NCBI GenBank assembly: GCA_018435055.1
Contig: JAHDOA010000004.1
Location: forward strand, 1-64,000
DNA: 64,000 nucleotides
Origin: Pelotomaculum sp.
GTDB taxonomy: Bacteria; Bacillota; Desulfotomaculia; Desulfotomaculales; Pelotomaculaceae
Direction: 5' to 3'
Shown here one piece after another: positions 48,126 to 61,916 of this stretch. Position 1 is the stretch's first letter, and every line of letters begins with the position of its first letter. The notes below the pieces were generated by a model that was not told the DNA's origin, did no database searches, and saw only the letters and a list, made by a program, of their open reading frames with translations. A program made the translations under genes and the position numbers.

Positions 48126-48139
48126 ATAATCCCTCCTTT

Positions 48140-48307
48140 GGCCTCCGAGGTTAGCTGACGGGTTCGGGCTGAGGGCGCCCTACAGCTTAGTCGTGGGTAG
48201 TTGGTGGTTGGTGGTTGGTAACGACCAAAGACCAACGGCTAACGACTAAATTGATTCACCCCAAAAAATTTTATCCCCCGTTCCCCGGTTTTACCGGGGT
48301 TTCGGCC
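48140..48307 (-). promoter_or_regulatory. c-di-AMP (ydaO/yuaA) riboswitch upstream of the SleB-type gene
   Basis: On the minus strand the ydaO consensus is unmistakable: CCGGGGAACGGGGGA, then TTTTGGGGTGAATC, and at the 3' end AGCCCGAACCCGTCAGCTAA followed by CCTCGGAGGCC. The terminal GGCC/GGCC can close P1, and the AAAGGAGG of the gene follows at 48129-48136. The variable hairpin between the two conserved halves is expanded to about 70 nt (48185-48253) by repeats of ACCAACC/GGTTGGT flanked by TTAGTCGT/ACGACTAA. Confidence 0.95.
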
Positions 48308-48401
48308 TATTGCATTATTGTACAAGGATCTCCATAGTTTGACTAGAGCACAAAATTTTACATCTATTAAATCATGAAGCCCCAGTAGCTGCGCCAAACC
48401 A

Positions 48402-52937: not shown

Positions 52938-54662
52938 TTAGAAATTAAAAACCTCATCGATCTCCTCATCTGTGAAGTCCCAGGTAGTGTTGTGAGGCGG
53001 GCACTCCTCTGCGAAGAACTCCGGCAGGCGGTCATGGGCCCTGGTGAATCCCGCCTTTTCGTTAAAACCACGCTCTGCTTTCAGGATCGCCTGACCCAGG
53101 GCGGTTACGTCGTCTGCCGTGAGAGCCAGCCCGTACTGGGCGTTAATCATATCGATCAGGGCGTTAAAGCCGTCCTCTATATCCAGTATCGCAAAGGCGA
53201 TAAACAAGCACATACCGGTGCTATCCACGGCGGCGGTCGCTATCTGCAGGTTGCGGGACAGATCCACCTGGCCTTCTTTCTTTAAAGGATCAACGAACCC
53301 CCCCGACCTGAGGATGTTAGTCGCCACAGCATAGCCCGCGGTATGGTCGGCGCCCATCGGAGATGTGGCATAGGTCAGGCCGACACCTTTCACCGCGCGC
53401 GGGTCGTAGGCGGGAATCGCCTGGTTTTTTACAACAGGCACCCTGGTCATACCGAAGACCTTGCCGGCAACCGCGGCGCCGCTGCCAATAATCCTGCCCA
53501 GCGGGGTCCCTTTGCTGATCTGCTCAACAAGATCAAGCGCCGCCTTGCCGTCACCCCACGGTATGACCCCTGCTTCCATCGCCACTACTATTGTAACGCC
53601 TGTTTCAATACTGTCGATGCCTGCGTCATCCACAGCGCGGTCAATATAAGCAATTTCGTCTAAATCTTTAATGCATGCACAGGCGCCAAGGCTCCAAATT
53701 GTTTCATATTCAAAACCGCTGGTAAGATATTGGCCCGCCTGATCAAAATATTGCTGGGAACAGCGAATAATACAACCTGTCTGGCAGCCGTGAGTGGGCC
53801 TGCCGCCGCGCTCTTTAATTGTAGCGGCCATTGTTTCACCGCCGATATCATTTGCCCATTCGTTGCGGCCTCTGCGGAAATTTTGCGTTGGTAGTCCGCC
53901 GGCCTCGTTGAGGATGTTAACTAAGATATCAGTGCCGTAAGCGGGCAGGCCCTGTCCGGTAACCGGGTGGTCCAGCAGCGCTTTGGCAAACCTTTTGGCA
54001 GCAGCGTTAAACGCGTCCACATCAGCGACAGGTACCCCCGGAGCGCCGGTGTCGTCCACGACAACAGCTTTCACCTTTTTTGAACCCAGCACGGCGCCCA
54101 GCCCGCCGCGGCCGGCGCTGCGCATGTTCCCGTCAGGGTCTTTGATGGAAACGTTGGCTGCCGCCAGCCTCATTTCCCCTGCCGGGCCGGCTATGGCAAT
54201 ACCCACCTTCTGGCCGTATTTTTCGTTGAGGACCTTAATTGCCTCGTAGTTTCCTTTGCCGCTGATTTCCCGGGGAGCCTCTTCTATAGTTACCCCGGCT
54301 GTATTCACATTGATCACATAGAGATTGTCTTCATCAGGCATTCCTTCAATAACGAGCGCCTTGACGCCGAGCCTGGCCAACTTTTGTGAAAATGAACCGC
54401 CGGCGTTGCTTTCCTTGATGCCACCGGTCAGCGGGCTTTTGGCGCCCACTGAAATACGCCCGGAGTTAGGAGCGGTTGTGCCGCTGAGCAGGCCCGGGGC
54501 AAAAACGATCTTGTTGTTCTTCCCTAAAGGGTGGCAGGTTGGCTTTACTTCATCTGCCACAATCATGGAAGTGAGACCGCGGCCTCCTAACCCCGCATAT
54601 TTCCGGGGGACTTCCTCAACCCTGACTTCTTTCGTCGTCATGTCTACGCGGATGAATTTCAT
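52938..54662 (-). CDS. aor: Aldehyde:ferredoxin oxidoreductase (tungsten/molybdenum pterin)
   Basis: 574 aa. It oxidises aldehydes to acids (or the reverse) with ferredoxin, using a tungsto-bispterin and one 4Fe-4S cluster. Pterin-binding N-terminal domain: GGRGLTSMIVADEV, LSGTTAPNSGRISVGAKSPL and AGRGGLGAVLGSKKVKAV. Cluster cysteines: HGCQTGCIIRCSQQ plus a later Cys in DSTGMCLF; DDAGIDSIETG is the pterin motif. The gene has its own leader with an intrinsic terminator, and a molybdopterin operon lies 3 kb upstream, so metal-cofactor-linked control is plausible. Confidence 0.93.
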   Translation of the reverse strand: MKFIRVDMTTKEVRVEEVPRKYAGLGGRGLTSMIVADEVKPTCHPLGKNNKIVFAPGLLSGTTAPNSGRISVGAKSPLTGGIKESNAGGSFSQKLARLGVKALVIEGMPDEDNLYVINVNTAGVTIEEAPREISGKGNYEAIKVLNEKYGQKVGIAIAGPAGEMRLAAANVSIKDPDGNMRSAGRGGLGAVLGSKKVKAVVVDDTGAPGVPVADVDAFNAAAKRFAKALLDHPVTGQGLPAYGTDILVNILNEAGGLPTQNFRRGRNEWANDIGGETMAATIKERGGRPTHGCQTGCIIRCSQQYFDQAGQYLTSGFEYETIWSLGACACIKDLDEIAYIDRAVDDAGIDSIETGVTIVVAMEAGVIPWGDGKAALDLVEQISKGTPLGRIIGSGAAVAGKVFGMTRVPVVKNQAIPAYDPRAVKGVGLTYATSPMGADHTAGYAVATNILRSGGFVDPLKKEGQVDLSRNLQIATAAVDSTGMCLFIAFAILDIEDGFNALIDMINAQYGLALTADDVTALGQAILKAERGFNEKAGFTRAHDRLPEFFAEECPPHNTTWDFTDEEIDEVFNF

Positions 54663-54689
54663 TTTAAACCCCTCCTTTATTTGAACTAT

Positions 54690-54790
54690 AAAAAAAGGAA
54701 GAGGTTATCCCTCTTCCTTTGCGCGCCGGCAGGTATGGCAATTGCTCACCATACCCTTTCGTTTGTTACATCCCGTAAGGAGTACAACAA
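54690..54790 (-). promoter_or_regulatory. Terminator-containing leader of the AOR gene, candidate riboswitch
   Basis: Minus-strand leader with a hairpin GGTATGG/CCATACC (54755-54749 with 54738-54732), a conserved-looking CGGCGCGCAAAGG linker, and then a perfect intrinsic terminator GGAAGAGG/CCTCTTCC plus seven T residues at 54718-54690. This ends 27 nt before the AOR start codon (AAAGGAGGGG in between). A terminator between promoter and gene implies attenuation. It does not obviously match the Moco/Tuco riboswitch as I remember it, so the class is unknown. Confidence 0.6.
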
Positions 54791-54875
54791 ATCGGAAGTT
54801 TTGTTAAATTAAATATACTATAAATATTAGATAAAATTATGAATATTTCATTAATTTTTTATTAATTTTATATTG

Positions 54876-57224: not shown

Positions 57225-57267
57225 TTAAACCCCTCCTTGTAACTGGTTGGTTTGGTTTACTTATTTG

Positions 57268-57294
57268 TTAGCACTCGATATCAATGAGTGCTAA
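57268..57294 (-). promoter_or_regulatory. CIRCE operator (HrcA binding site)
   Basis: Perfect inverted repeat TTAGCACTC-N9-GAGTGCTAA in the groES leader, the canonical HrcA operator for heat-shock repression of groESL. Confidence 0.98.
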
Positions 57295-57306
57295 CATTAC
57301 GTAAAT

Positions 57307-57509: not shown

Positions 57510-58001
57510 TTATTCAGCCGAGCCGCACTCCCCGCCCCTGCCAGTAAGAATTTCCAAACCATGAGGCAGGGCGGGCATTATTACCGCAAGACATTCCCGC
57601 ACCGCTTTAACGCTGCCGGGCAGGTTTATAATTAAAGTATTGTTACGAATACCGGCAACAGCCCTGGAAAGCATCGCCCGGTTGGTTCTTTTCAAGCTGT
57701 CCGCCCGCATGGCCTCGACCAGGCCGGGCGCCTGTTTTCTGATCACAGCCAGGGTTGCCTCAGGGGTGTTATCCCTGGAGCTAAAACCTGTACCGCCGGA
57801 GGTGAAAACCAGGTCAAGCTTTTCCTTATCCGACATACTGATCATTGCTTCTTTTAAAAGATCCAGGTCGTCAGGTACGACGATGTAGCTTGTCACTTCA
57901 CCCAAGGATTTTACCATCTCTTTAATAACTGGTCCGCTTTCGTCCACCCGCTCACCGCGGGAGCCTTTATCGCTGACAGTAATAATTCCTATTTCGTACA
58001 A
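57510..58001 (-). CDS. mog: Molybdopterin adenylyltransferase (MogA/MoaB family)
   Basis: 163 aa. GIITVSDKGSRGERVDESG, the pterin-binding loop VFTSGGTGFSSRDNTPEA and LPGSVKAVRECL match MogA/MoaB proteins that adenylylate molybdopterin before metal insertion. The TTG start has AGGAG 9 nt upstream. Last gene of the molybdopterin operon, 77 bp after moaC. Confidence 0.93.
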   Translation of the reverse strand: MYEIGIITVSDKGSRGERVDESGPVIKEMVKSLGEVTSYIVVPDDLDLLKEAMISMSDKEKLDLVFTSGGTGFSSRDNTPEATLAVIRKQAPGLVEAMRADSLKRTNRAMLSRAVAGIRNNTLIINLPGSVKAVRECLAVIMPALPHGLEILTGRGGECGSAE

Positions 58002-58078
58002 GGCAATCCACTCCTATTTTATAATTCGGGGATTTTCTCCGGCCCGGCAGGGCAGTTTTCCACCCGGCGTCCCGCTAT

Positions 58079-58573
58079 TTAAGACCAGATTTCTTCACCT
58101 GCGCGCTGAAAGACACCGCTTTTACCCCCGCTCTTATGTACCAGCCTGATGGCGCCGATAACCATCTCCCGGTCTACCGCCTTGCACATGTCATAAATGG
58201 CCAGAGCCGCCGTTGACACAGCGGTAAGGGCCTCCATTTCCACCCCAGTCTGCCCGGTCGTCCTCGCTTTGGCCTCGATTTCCACCCTGCTGCGCTCGCG
58301 GTCGGAACGAAAGCGCACATCAACTCCCGTCAACGCCAGGGGGTGACAGAGGGGTATTAAGTCCGGCGTCTTTTTGGCGGCTATGATTCCGGCCACCCGG
58401 GCTACGCCAAACACCTCTCCTTTGGAAACTTTACCGGCAAGGATCATTTCTAGCGTTTCCGGACGCATGGACACTTCTCCCCGGGCAACCGCCTCCCTGC
58501 GAGTAATTTCTTTTCCTCCCACTTCCACCATCCTGGCCTGGCCTTGTTCATCCAGGTGAGTTAAACCACTCAA
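58079..58573 (-). CDS. moaC: Cyclic pyranopterin monophosphate synthase MoaC
   Basis: 164 aa. It acts after MoaA to form cPMP from 3',8-cH2[22 protein letters not shown] and [20 protein letters not shown] then [11 protein letters not shown] carry the active-site residues; the [10 protein letters not shown] end is typical. The start is TTG 58573 with AGGAG 8 nt upstream. Confidence 0.96.
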
Positions 58574-58637
58574 AGCAACATCTCCTTATAATAGTTCTTG
58601 TTGTCTGATCATTATTAGAATATCAAACAACAGGCTA

Positions 58638-60560
58638 TCAATTCCGCCACATTACCTTACCGCAGTCGCGCAGGTCATAGCCACCCAGTTTGGCTACCTC
58701 TGCCTGAAACTCGGGCATATTTATTATTTCCAGCATCCGCTGTATATAAGGCGTGTCCCAGTACTCTTCGGGTATGCACAGATCATAGCGCTCCTCAACA
58801 ATACTGGTAAAGTCCAGGCCGAGGGCGCGGGCCGCCGCCCGTATGCCCAGTCCGGCGTCCGCCGCCCCGGCTTTAACCGCGACGGCTACGGCCATATGGG
58901 TATACTCCTCGTGCTCGTAGCCGTTGATTTGCTCCGGATCAATGCACTGCTTCCGCAGCAGGTAATCAAGCAGGATCCTGGTACCGGCGCCGCGCTGCCG
59001 GTTAACATAGCTGACGCCTGCCCTGGCCAAATCTGCGAGATTACGGATGTTCATGGGGTTGCCTTTAGTCAGGATCAGCCCTTGTTCACGGTAAACCAGG
59101 TTGACAAGTTTTACCTTTCTGCCGGAAAGCAGCCTTTTTACATAGGAAACATTGTAATCGCCTGTTTCCTCGTCAAGCAGGTGGATACCCGCGCAGTGAG
59201 CCTCGCCGCGCCTTAAAGCCGTAAATCCCCCCAGGCTGCCGACATGGGCTGACGAAAGGGCGGCCTCGGGATATTTACGTCGTAAAAAATCGGCAAGCAC
59301 ATCCAGGGCCAGATCGTGGCTGCCGATGATCACGGTGGTCTCCCCGATTTCCTGCGGTGTTTTAAAAAGTTCTACCGGGGCTTTGTCACCGGCGTTAAAC
59401 CCCTCTGATTTCTGCGGGATCCTGATCATCCCGTCAGCCAAAACCAGTGACATCATGATCCCGGCGCCGCGGGATATCGGGGTGGCTACGACTCTATTCC
59501 CCACTTGTCCAAGCTTGACCCTGACAAATTCCTCCACGCCTATAGGTGAGACCATTTTTCTGGACACCGTGGCTTCGATTTTTTCAATGGGAGGAGGTAC
59601 AGCGCCAAGTTTTTTAAAAATGACCGGCTTGACGAAAAGGTCCAGATCTATGTATGCGGATACCGGATAACCCGGTACGCCTATCGCCGGCTTGCCGTTT
59701 ATTTCACCGAGTATAACAGGTTTACCCGGTTTGGTTGCTACCCCGTGCACCAATACCGTTCCCAGAGACCTGATCGCGTCAACGGTAAAATCCTCGGACC
59801 CTGCTGAAGAACCAGCATTAATCAGTACGATATCCGCGTCATCCGAAGATCTTAAAAGCATTGCCTTAATATCGGCAAAATCGTCAACCGTTATCTCCCT
59901 GCGCAGAGCAATGCCGCCCCATTTCTCCACCATTGCGCCCAACATCCTGGAGTTATACTCGATGATATCCCCCGGCTGCAAATCAGAGCCTGGTTGAACC
60001 AGTTCCGTACCGGTCGGCAAAATAGCCACCCGCGGGCGGGGATAAACATAAATACTGTCGACACCGCCGGCCAGCATGGCGCCTATGTCAACCGGCCTGA
60101 CCTGGTGGCTGGAGGATAATATCATTTCAGTCGCCACCATATCTTCCCCCACAATCCGTACATGCCGCCAGGGGGGCACAGCCTCAATGATCTCGATCAG
60201 ATCCGGTTTTAAATAGTGCACTTCCTCAATCATTATTACCGCATCACAGCCGTCCGGCAGCGGGTCACCCGTGTCTACCGGGACCGCTTCCTGGCCCACA
60301 ATCAACTGCCTGGGGGTTGTTTCCGAAGCGCCGTATGTAATTGAAGAACGGACGGCCATGCCATCCATAGCTGAAGCATGGTAATGGGGAGAGGAGATCC
60401 TGGCATAAACAGGGGCCGCTGTAATCCGGCCAAGGGCTTCTTCAACCGAAATCAGCTCCGGCCGTCCCGGATGCAATGCCCCAATACCATCAAGATAGCC
60501 AAGGTATCGTTCGAGTGCTTCCTCCCAGGGCAGATCATCAAGATAAATTTTTCGCTTCAT
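58638..60560 (-). CDS. MoeA-like molybdopterin molybdotransferase fused to a PBP-like domain
   Basis: 640 aa. Residues about 1-405 are MoeA-like (PVYARISSPHYHASAMDGMA, INAGSSAGSEDFTVD, GVPGYPVSAYIDLDLF). Residues about 425-640 form a periplasmic-binding-protein-like domain (SSAHVGSLGGFTALRRGEAH, YREQGLILTKGNP, NRQRGAGTRILLDYLL) thought to bind molybdate/tungstate or another ligand. ATG 60560 is preceded by GGGGTG. It is followed by moaC and preceded by a second, stand-alone moeA; pairs like this are common in organisms with tungsten enzymes. Confidence 0.92.
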   Translation of the reverse strand: MKRKIYLDDLPWEEALERYLGYLDGIGALHPGRPELISVEEALGRITAAPVYARISSPHYHASAMDGMAVRSSITYGASETTPRQLIVGQEAVPVDTGDPLPDGCDAVIMIEEVHYLKPDLIEIIEAVPPWRHVRIVGEDMVATEMILSSSHQVRPVDIGAMLAGGVDSIYVYPRPRVAILPTGTELVQPGSDLQPGDIIEYNSRMLGAMVEKWGGIALRREITVDDFADIKAMLLRSSDDADIVLINAGSSAGSEDFTVDAIRSLGTVLVHGVATKPGKPVILGEINGKPAIGVPGYPVSAYIDLDLFVKPVIFKKLGAVPPPIEKIEATVSRKMVSPIGVEEFVRVKLGQVGNRVVATPISRGAGIMMSLVLADGMIRIPQKSEGFNAGDKAPVELFKTPQEIGETTVIIGSHDLALDVLADFLRRKYPEAALSSAHVGSLGGFTALRRGEAHCAGIHLLDEETGDYNVSYVKRLLSGRKVKLVNLVYREQGLILTKGNPMNIRNLADLARAGVSYVNRQRGAGTRILLDYLLRKQCIDPEQINGYEHEEYTHMAVAVAVKAGAADAGLGIRAAARALGLDFTSIVEERYDLCIPEEYWDTPYIQRMLEIINMPEFQAEVAKLGGYDLRDCGKVMWRN

Positions 60561-60589
60561 ATTTATCCGCACCCCAATTTAAACAAACT

Positions 60590-60680
60590 GACGGTATTTA
60601 CGGGTTAAATTGAATATATTAATTCTAATAGTCCTGTTAATCTTATGTAATCCGGTCAATCCTGTCAAATTGTTTTAAAA
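60590..60680. repeat. AT-rich ATCCTGT-type repeat between the two moeA genes
   Basis: Contains AGTCCTGTTAATCTTATGTA then CCGGTCAATCCTGTCAAATTGTTTT, which turns back into AACAATTTGACA (a short hairpin overlapping the moeA stop). Same family as 121-185 and 10808-11095. Confidence 0.6.
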
Positions 60681-61916
60681 CAATTTGACATCCACTATTT
60701 CGCCGGCCTCAACACCCTCTTTGCCGGCAGGGATATGGGCCAGACCGTTTGCTTTGATCATGGTATTGATCAGCCCCGATTTGCCAAGTACCGGCTCGGC
60801 AAAAAGCTGCCCCCCCTTACTGCTGACCTTAACACGAAAATAATCCTTGCGCCCGGCTGCGGAATGAAGGTTGCGGGTAATAATCGCTTTAACCGGAAAT
60901 TCCAGGGCAGACTCTTCTTCAGTTGCCGGGTAAGCGCCGTCACGCAAAAGCGGCGCGACCAGCACATCGAAGATAACCAGCGCTGACGCTGGATGACCGG
61001 GCAGCCCGAATAACGGTTTACCCCCTATAACTGCTCCCGCCGTAGGTTTGCCGGGCTTAACAGAAATCCCGTGAAAAACCACACCGGGCTTCCCGGCGGT
61101 ATCTATTACCTTGAAGGTTACATCACGTGCGCCGACAGAGCTTCCCCCGGAGATGAGGACCATGTCGTTTTCATCCAGCGCGCGGGCCAGGGTTTTTCTT
61201 AGTTTGTCATAATCATCCGGCACAATGCCGTAGAGGCGGGGCCGGCCGCCCGCGGCCAAGACAGCTCCGTATAGAATGTAGGAGTTGATGTCCCTGATTT
61301 CACCGGGAGAAGGTTTTTCCAGCGGGTTGATCAGTTCATCGCCGGTAGAGATAATTCCTACCCTGGTTATACGGGTTACCTCCACCTCGGTGACGCCGAT
61401 GGAGGAGAGTAGCCCCAGATCCTGGGGTCTGATCCGGTGGGATGCCGGAAGCGCGATATCCCCGGCGGTAATATCCTCCCCCCGGCGGATAACATTTTCA
61501 CCCGGCGCCACCGGCCGGTTAATCCCGATCGTGCGGCTGTCCAGCTCTTCAGTGTATTCGACCATTACAACGGCGTCAGCGCCCGCAGGAATCATAGCCC
61601 CGGTAGCAATGTACCAGGTTTGCCCCGTATCGACCCGACCGGCGGGTACCTGCCCGATTAGCGCCTCACCGCTGACATCAAGGTACGACGGTATTCCCTC
61701 TGAAGCGCCATAAGTATCCTTAGCTTTTACGGCGTACCCGTCTACTGTTGACCTGTTGAAGGCGGGTACATTATCCACAGCCCGCACATCCGCAGTCAGA
61801 CGGCAGCCGAGGCTTTCCAGTATGGGTACCTTTATACCTGTTTTTTCTGCCGGCAAGTGGCTCATTATGGCAGCCCTTGCCTCAGCCAGCGTTAACACCT
61901 TAAAAAGTTCTGCCAT
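60675..61916 (-). CDS. moeA: Molybdopterin molybdotransferase MoeA
   Basis: 413 aa, full-length single MoeA. It inserts molybdate or tungstate into adenylylated molybdopterin. Motifs: NVPAFNRSTVDGYAVKAKDT, WYIATGAMIPAGADAVVMVE, VGIISTGDELI, LISGGSSVGARD and GLPGHPASALVIFDVLV. It is 15 bp from the small CELGCF protein gene upstream. The stop codon lies in the AT-rich repeat. Confidence 0.96.
   Translation of the reverse strand: MAELFKVLTLAEARAAIMSHLPAEKTGIKVPILESLGCRLTADVRAVDNVPAFNRSTVDGYAVKAKDTYGASEGIPSYLDVSGEALIGQVPAGRVDTGQTWYIATGAMIPAGADAVVMVEYTEELDSRTIGINRPVAPGENVIRRGEDITAGDIALPASHRIRPQDLGLLSSIGVTEVEVTRITRVGIISTGDELINPLEKPSPGEIRDINSYILYGAVLAAGGRPRLYGIVPDDYDKLRKTLARALDENDMVLISGGSSVGARDVTFKVIDTAGKPGVVFHGISVKPGKPTAGAVIGGKPLFGLPGHPASALVIFDVLVAPLLRDGAYPATEEESALEFPVKAIITRNLHSAAGRKDYFRVKVSSKGGQLFAEPVLGKSGLINTMIKANGLAHIPAGKEGVEAGEIVDVKLF

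Follow-up and report, generated by a model that had tools for sequence, protein, structure and literature searches.

The Moco RNA motif (RF01055) combines stems P1, P2, P4 and P5, a GNRA-capped P4 and a TCCGA / AGGG / AAAGG core, and lies before genes of pterin-metal enzymes. Regulski et al. (2008) split these RNAs according to stem P3 and assigned the P3-less form, 58 of 176 RNAs, to the tungsten cofactor, an assignment that is correlative because its basis is co-occurrence with tungsten genes (PMC2408646). Typical P3-less Tuco/Wco RNAs keep the GAAA loop and its receptor, and precede tungstate-transport-like, formate dehydrogenase or MoeA-like genes. Regulski et al. also noted four Moco RNAs in which a GCAA loop goes with absence of the tetraloop receptor; the main text of that study describes for them no group, no link to aldehyde ferredoxin oxidoreductase (AOR) and no ON platform (PMC2408646).

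The RNA studied here was found in a 64,000-nucleotide stretch of Pelotomaculum sp. DNA, hereafter the window. It has exactly a GCAA loop and no receptor, the loop/receptor correlation of the four RNAs of 2008, and precedes the tungsten gene coding for AOR. Like the P3-less subgroup it has no P3 and stands before a tungsten-enzyme gene, and it shares stem order, P4 cap and core with RF01055. It differs from the common motif in lacking P3, the GAAA loop and the 11-nt receptor, and in a P5 that reads GC:GC where canonical Moco RNAs have CC:GG.

Leader anatomy and family identity

The AOR gene (52938-54662, minus strand) codes for a 574 aa protein with Pfam domains AFOR_N (E 3e-65) and AFOR_C (E 1e-73), 74-86% identical to its orthologues within the window's family. 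Its leader occupies positions 54805-54690 of the minus strand. The hairpin, linker and seven-T terminator that the original prediction placed 5' of the AOR ribosome-binding site are all present on this strand. Read from 54805 down to 54660, they are the hairpin GGTATGGTGA-GCAA-TTGCCATACC, the linker CGGCGCGCAAAGG and the terminator AAAGGAAGAGG-GATAA-CCTCTTCCTTT, an 11-bp stem-loop (54694-54720, about -16.8 kcal/mol) that runs into TTTTTTT at 54696-54690. AAAGGAGGGG, the ribosome-binding site (54669-54678), lies 3' of the terminator and is followed by the AOR ATG at 54662. On the plus strand the terminator has no U-tract, and termination is directed solely toward AOR.

The range first proposed, 54690-54790, holds the terminator and linker and clips the RNA, which starts at about 54805, leaving the P1 5' strand and part of P2 outside. 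The whole aptamer spans 54713-54805. From 5' to 3' it is composed of the P1 5' strand CUUCC (54794-54798, partner at 54713-54717), a long P2 stem-loop (54762-54791), the P4 hairpin (54731-54756, tetraloop at 54742-54745) and a short P5 (54721-54730), followed by AAAGGAAG, terminator, ribosome-binding site and start codon. The leader folds at -47.2 kcal/mol versus -32.6 kcal/mol for shuffles (z -3.7) and beats 200 of 200 dinucleotide shuffles.

A fast-filter Rfam scan of the whole window gave no match at the leader, which the RF01055 whole-genome search also missed. The blank of the fast-filter scan is misleading, since a permissive cmscan of 700 bases aligns RF01055 in full length to 54809-54698 (39.5 bits, E 7.5e-8), exceeding the curated cut-off of 36 bits by only 3.5 bits. 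Weak Rfam matches of caiA and Termite-leu on the leader are far below cut-off and were rejected as terminator look-alikes. P1, P2, P4, P5 and the conserved junction core are all present in the Rfam consensus alignment and by pair counts, and the P3 columns are empty. The GNRA tetraloop of P4 is GCAA in the window and GUAA or GGAA in relatives. A receptor in P2, which is usual but not universal in RF01055 and hence not strictly defining, is absent from all nine aligned AOR leaders. The leader thus belongs to the known Moco/tungsten-cofactor riboswitch family, as a compact and divergent member.

Orthologous AOR leaders carry the RNA in five further genomes of the window's family and also in Sporomusa, whose AOR genes were located independently by searching named genomes at the protein level. 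In one of the five (L047 of G088) a perfect palindrome at the contig end is an assembly artefact, and its P1 side was left unused. An alignment of nine AOR leaders, from which covariance model R1 was made, keeps P1/P2/P4/P5 pairing in 95.7% of cells. It contains nine compensatory pairs changed on both sides, five in P2 and four in P4, whereas sliding the partners leaves two at most; within this nine-sequence set the P1 pairs hardly vary and so show little covariation. The search for covarying stems suggested at the outset was productive, and the terminator is conserved as well. A conserved aptamer 5' of a conserved terminator bears out the proposal of an attenuator or riboswitch leader for AOR.

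Other elements were observed in the window. Upstream of groES-groEL and AOR, the same strand carries pterin-metal cofactor genes (two moeA-like, moaC and moaB-like; 57510-61916, minus strand), and a Moco RNA was found before none of these. A CIRCE-like inverted repeat, GTTAGCACTC-N9-GAGTGCTAAC, is located at 57265-57296 upstream of groES. A c-di-AMP riboswitch (RF00379, 78.2 bits; 48126-48317, minus strand) precedes a LysM / cell-wall hydrolase-like gene.

Strand sharing between P1 and terminator

In the window leader, GGAAG (54713-54717) serves both as P1 3' strand and within the terminator 5' arm. In every compact RNA with a called terminator (29/29), the overlap between terminator and P1 is 3-7 nt, whereas at least 2 nt are shared in 16 of the 110 other Moco RNAs of an order survey (Fisher p 9e-19, which is optimistic given phylogenetic non-independence). 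Compact RNAs with no visible terminator (L276, L265) or with interrupted U-tracts (L270, L274, L280) were not counted as ON. In L262 both partners tracked the shared strand: it became GGAGU, the P1 5' strand ACUCC and the terminator 3' arm GCUCC. Folding predicts that the full RNA adopts the terminator with P1 open while the nascent aptamer is able to form P1, and that enforcing P1 costs 10-14 kcal/mol with loss of the terminator base. No antiterminator helix was seen in the window leader or in those of its closest relatives, where complements reach 2-3 bp at most.

We are confident in reading the leader as a P3-less, compact, AOR-specialised subtype of RF01055 that most likely acts as a transcriptional ON switch. 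As the P1 3' strand doubles as terminator arm, a ligand-stabilised P1 should block termination. When ligand is missing, the AAAGGAAG strand would leave aptamer P1 to form the base of the 11-bp terminator, and transcription would stop some 28 nt short of the AOR start codon. Direct binding of the cofactor, most likely in its tungsten-pterin rather than a molybdenum form, would lock P1 (CUUCC/GGAAG), block the terminator base and let RNA polymerase read into AOR. In the pbuE adenine riboswitch, an ON-type transcriptional switch, aptamer P1 and terminator likewise compete for one strand, though the two aptamers are unrelated.

A Moco-family riboswitch could alternatively turn AOR off at abundant cofactor, as does the E. 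coli moaA member, which represses (PMC2408646) and for which an OFF layout at the level of translation has been proposed, in place of the transcriptional ON layout of the window RNA. Several canonical RNAs of the same genome (L005, L007, L009) have an OFF-like layout, with a terminator loop able to pair with the P5/P1 region; automatic classification left most canonical terminators undecided, so that no general OFF claim is made for them. For the AOR leader we consider repression improbable. An OFF layout requires an antiterminator and none is seen, the terminator arm being the P1 strand itself; there would be little sense in repressing the enzyme while its cofactor abounds; and the Sporomusa ovata homologues rise with tungstate (PMC4973070).

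These published expression data support the ON direction preferred here. When Ammam et al. (2016) raised tungstate from 1x to 10x, qPCR showed S. ovata aor1-2 up 30.4-fold and aor4 up 14.3-fold, with aor3 unchanged (PMC4973070); the consulted sections of that article make no mention of an RNA element. In the S. ovata genome, two tandem intact compact RNAs precede each of the AOR copies at C1:579 kb and C1:584 kb (aor1 and aor2), and one intact compact RNA precedes each of the two AOR genes of contig 5, one of which is aor4. The leader of the AOR gene at C1:1265 kb (aor3) retains P2 and P4, while neither P1 strand nor the terminator is left. Genes were matched to loci by contig, order and frameshift: locus-tag numbers agree with contig positions for aor1, aor2 and aor3, and a one-base frameshift near the start of the 584-kb copy fits the truncated Aor2 of the article (PMC4973070). 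Intact leaders thus go with tungstate induction and the decayed aor3 leader does not, which agrees with the ON prediction and is opposite to OFF, in a correlative comparison drawn from a different Bacillota class where promoter-level control is possible.

Elsewhere in the Pelotomaculum genome, tandem P3-less Moco RNAs (L005 and L006; G000:C70:1816-1935 and 1966-2085) precede an S-layer-domain gene. Judged by eye, the L005 terminator is ON-like, sharing the P1 strand, and that of L006 OFF-like. If this is true, the pair would place opposite switches in series and could work as a band-pass.

Compact AOR-linked RNAs

The compact RNAs have a non-GAAA GNRA tetraloop, no receptor and a P5 rebuilt as GC:GC. 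In the window R1 gives a single match, the leader (85.8 bits, E 2.4e-22), a score owed in part to the inclusion of the window leader in the seed. R1 finds matches in 85 of 398 phylum genomes. The 24 best matches outside the window were examined, all above 61 bits; the second matches of G234 and G200, also above 61 bits, were left out. Twenty-two of the 24 precede AOR genes or operons, a link explained in part by common descent of the AOR operon since R1 was seeded with AOR leaders. An AOR reading frame starts within 1.5 kb downstream in 20, and two head NuoE-NuoF-[2Fe-2S]-[4Fe-4S]-AOR operons. L280 has the same start as these operons on a contig that ends before AOR and was not counted as AOR-linked, and L276 precedes a sigma-54 activator. 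In an order-wide RF01055 survey of mostly canonical GAAA-loop RNAs, AOR is downstream of only 2 of 140, the others preceding tungstate/molybdate-type solute-binding proteins, formate dehydrogenases, MoeA-like proteins and others. The tie that the original prediction drew between the leader and the tungsto/molybdopterin need of AOR is upheld.

The same prediction spoke of an unknown class, possibly a new cofactor- or metal-sensing RNA, and advised an RF01055 check. Such a class, merely Moco-like and sensing tungstate, molybdate or another signal, would account for the compact architecture, the missing receptor, the rebuilt P5 and the weak Rfam scores, and we hold it to be very unlikely. The RF01055 check was positive when run unfiltered, many members score above that cut-off, and stem order and core are the same. 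Detection is reciprocal: R1, built from AOR leaders, retrieves canonical RF01055 RNAs encoded in the window's genome, with lower scores (E 2e-9 to 5e-7). The leader had also been called unlike the Moco/Tuco motif; its divergence is real, yet it remains an RF01055 RNA. That impression is understandable given the loss of P3, receptor and GAAA loop, and because most close relatives fall below or just above the Rfam cut-off. A plain terminator of the transcript of groEL, which lies about 600 nt upstream on the same strand, or a chance hairpin of no regulatory role is hardly credible, as aptamer and terminator are conserved with AOR and not with groEL across genera and classes, and closer to groEL, near 55170-55125, stands another hairpin whose tail is T-rich (GAGGC...GCCTC-TTTCTTT).

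We regard the RNA as a compact, AOR-linked and probably ON-type variant within a known family, one that is under-detected by standard annotation. With its default search Rfam recovers 4 of the 20 compact RNAs that were tested; in a permissive RF01055 search of the 20, seven are above the cut-off, five below it and eight beyond E 0.05. Even at E 1, RF01055 detects none of the four tandem RNAs that precede S. ovata aor1 and aor2. The literature searched reports no such under-detection and ties no Moco-family RNA to ON-direction control of AOR. Apart from the four GCAA sequences reported in 2008, it gives no description of the compact subtype; the supplementary figures of that study may list some members.

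Several observations concern the surroundings of these and related RNAs. A sigma-54-like -24/-12 promoter (TTGGTAC-N5-TTGC) lies about 20-35 nt upstream of P1 in four AOR orthologues (L046, L048, L049, L052); none was observed for the window leader. Several compact RNAs have sigma-54 activator-like genes nearby (L276, S. ovata C1:1276 kb). At L311 (S. ovata C5:344.8 kb), and also at L085, a divergent compact RNA whose P1 and terminator share a strand in the same way faces a moeA-like gene, so that AOR is not strictly the only target of the ON subtype. P3-less Moco RNAs also precede NAD-type aldehyde dehydrogenase genes (L010, L166, L223, L247), possibly coding for a tungsten-free substitute of AOR. 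Another Moco-family RNA (L009, G000:C70:33413-33535) lies before an ECF-type transporter gene (ABC_cobalt family) whose substrate could be a metal or a pterin precursor.

Meaning for the proposed tungsten-cofactor sensing

The compact AOR-linked RNAs might form a separate specificity class tuned to the AOR cofactor, the tungsten bis-pyranopterin without nucleotide, as opposed to the form sensed by canonical P3-less RNAs. We find this doubtful; if true, one genome would read two cofactor forms through related aptamers with opposite logic, ON for AOR and OFF for uptake/synthesis.

Rfam annotation under-reports the compact AOR-linked RNAs. The literature searched holds no direct test of the proposed tungsten-cofactor riboswitch, with no binding or reporter assay for the window RNA or any P3-less member, and the purified cofactor needed for a binding test is unstable (PMC2408646). 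The compact subtype offers a clean test, as it combines a small RNA, a simple transcriptional platform and one enzyme gene, and S. ovata supplies a natural contrast between intact, tungstate-induced aor1/2/4 and the decayed, non-induced aor3. The ON switch would provide an RNA explanation for the published 14-30-fold tungstate induction of AOR, the enzyme used for making alcohols from CO2 and acids.
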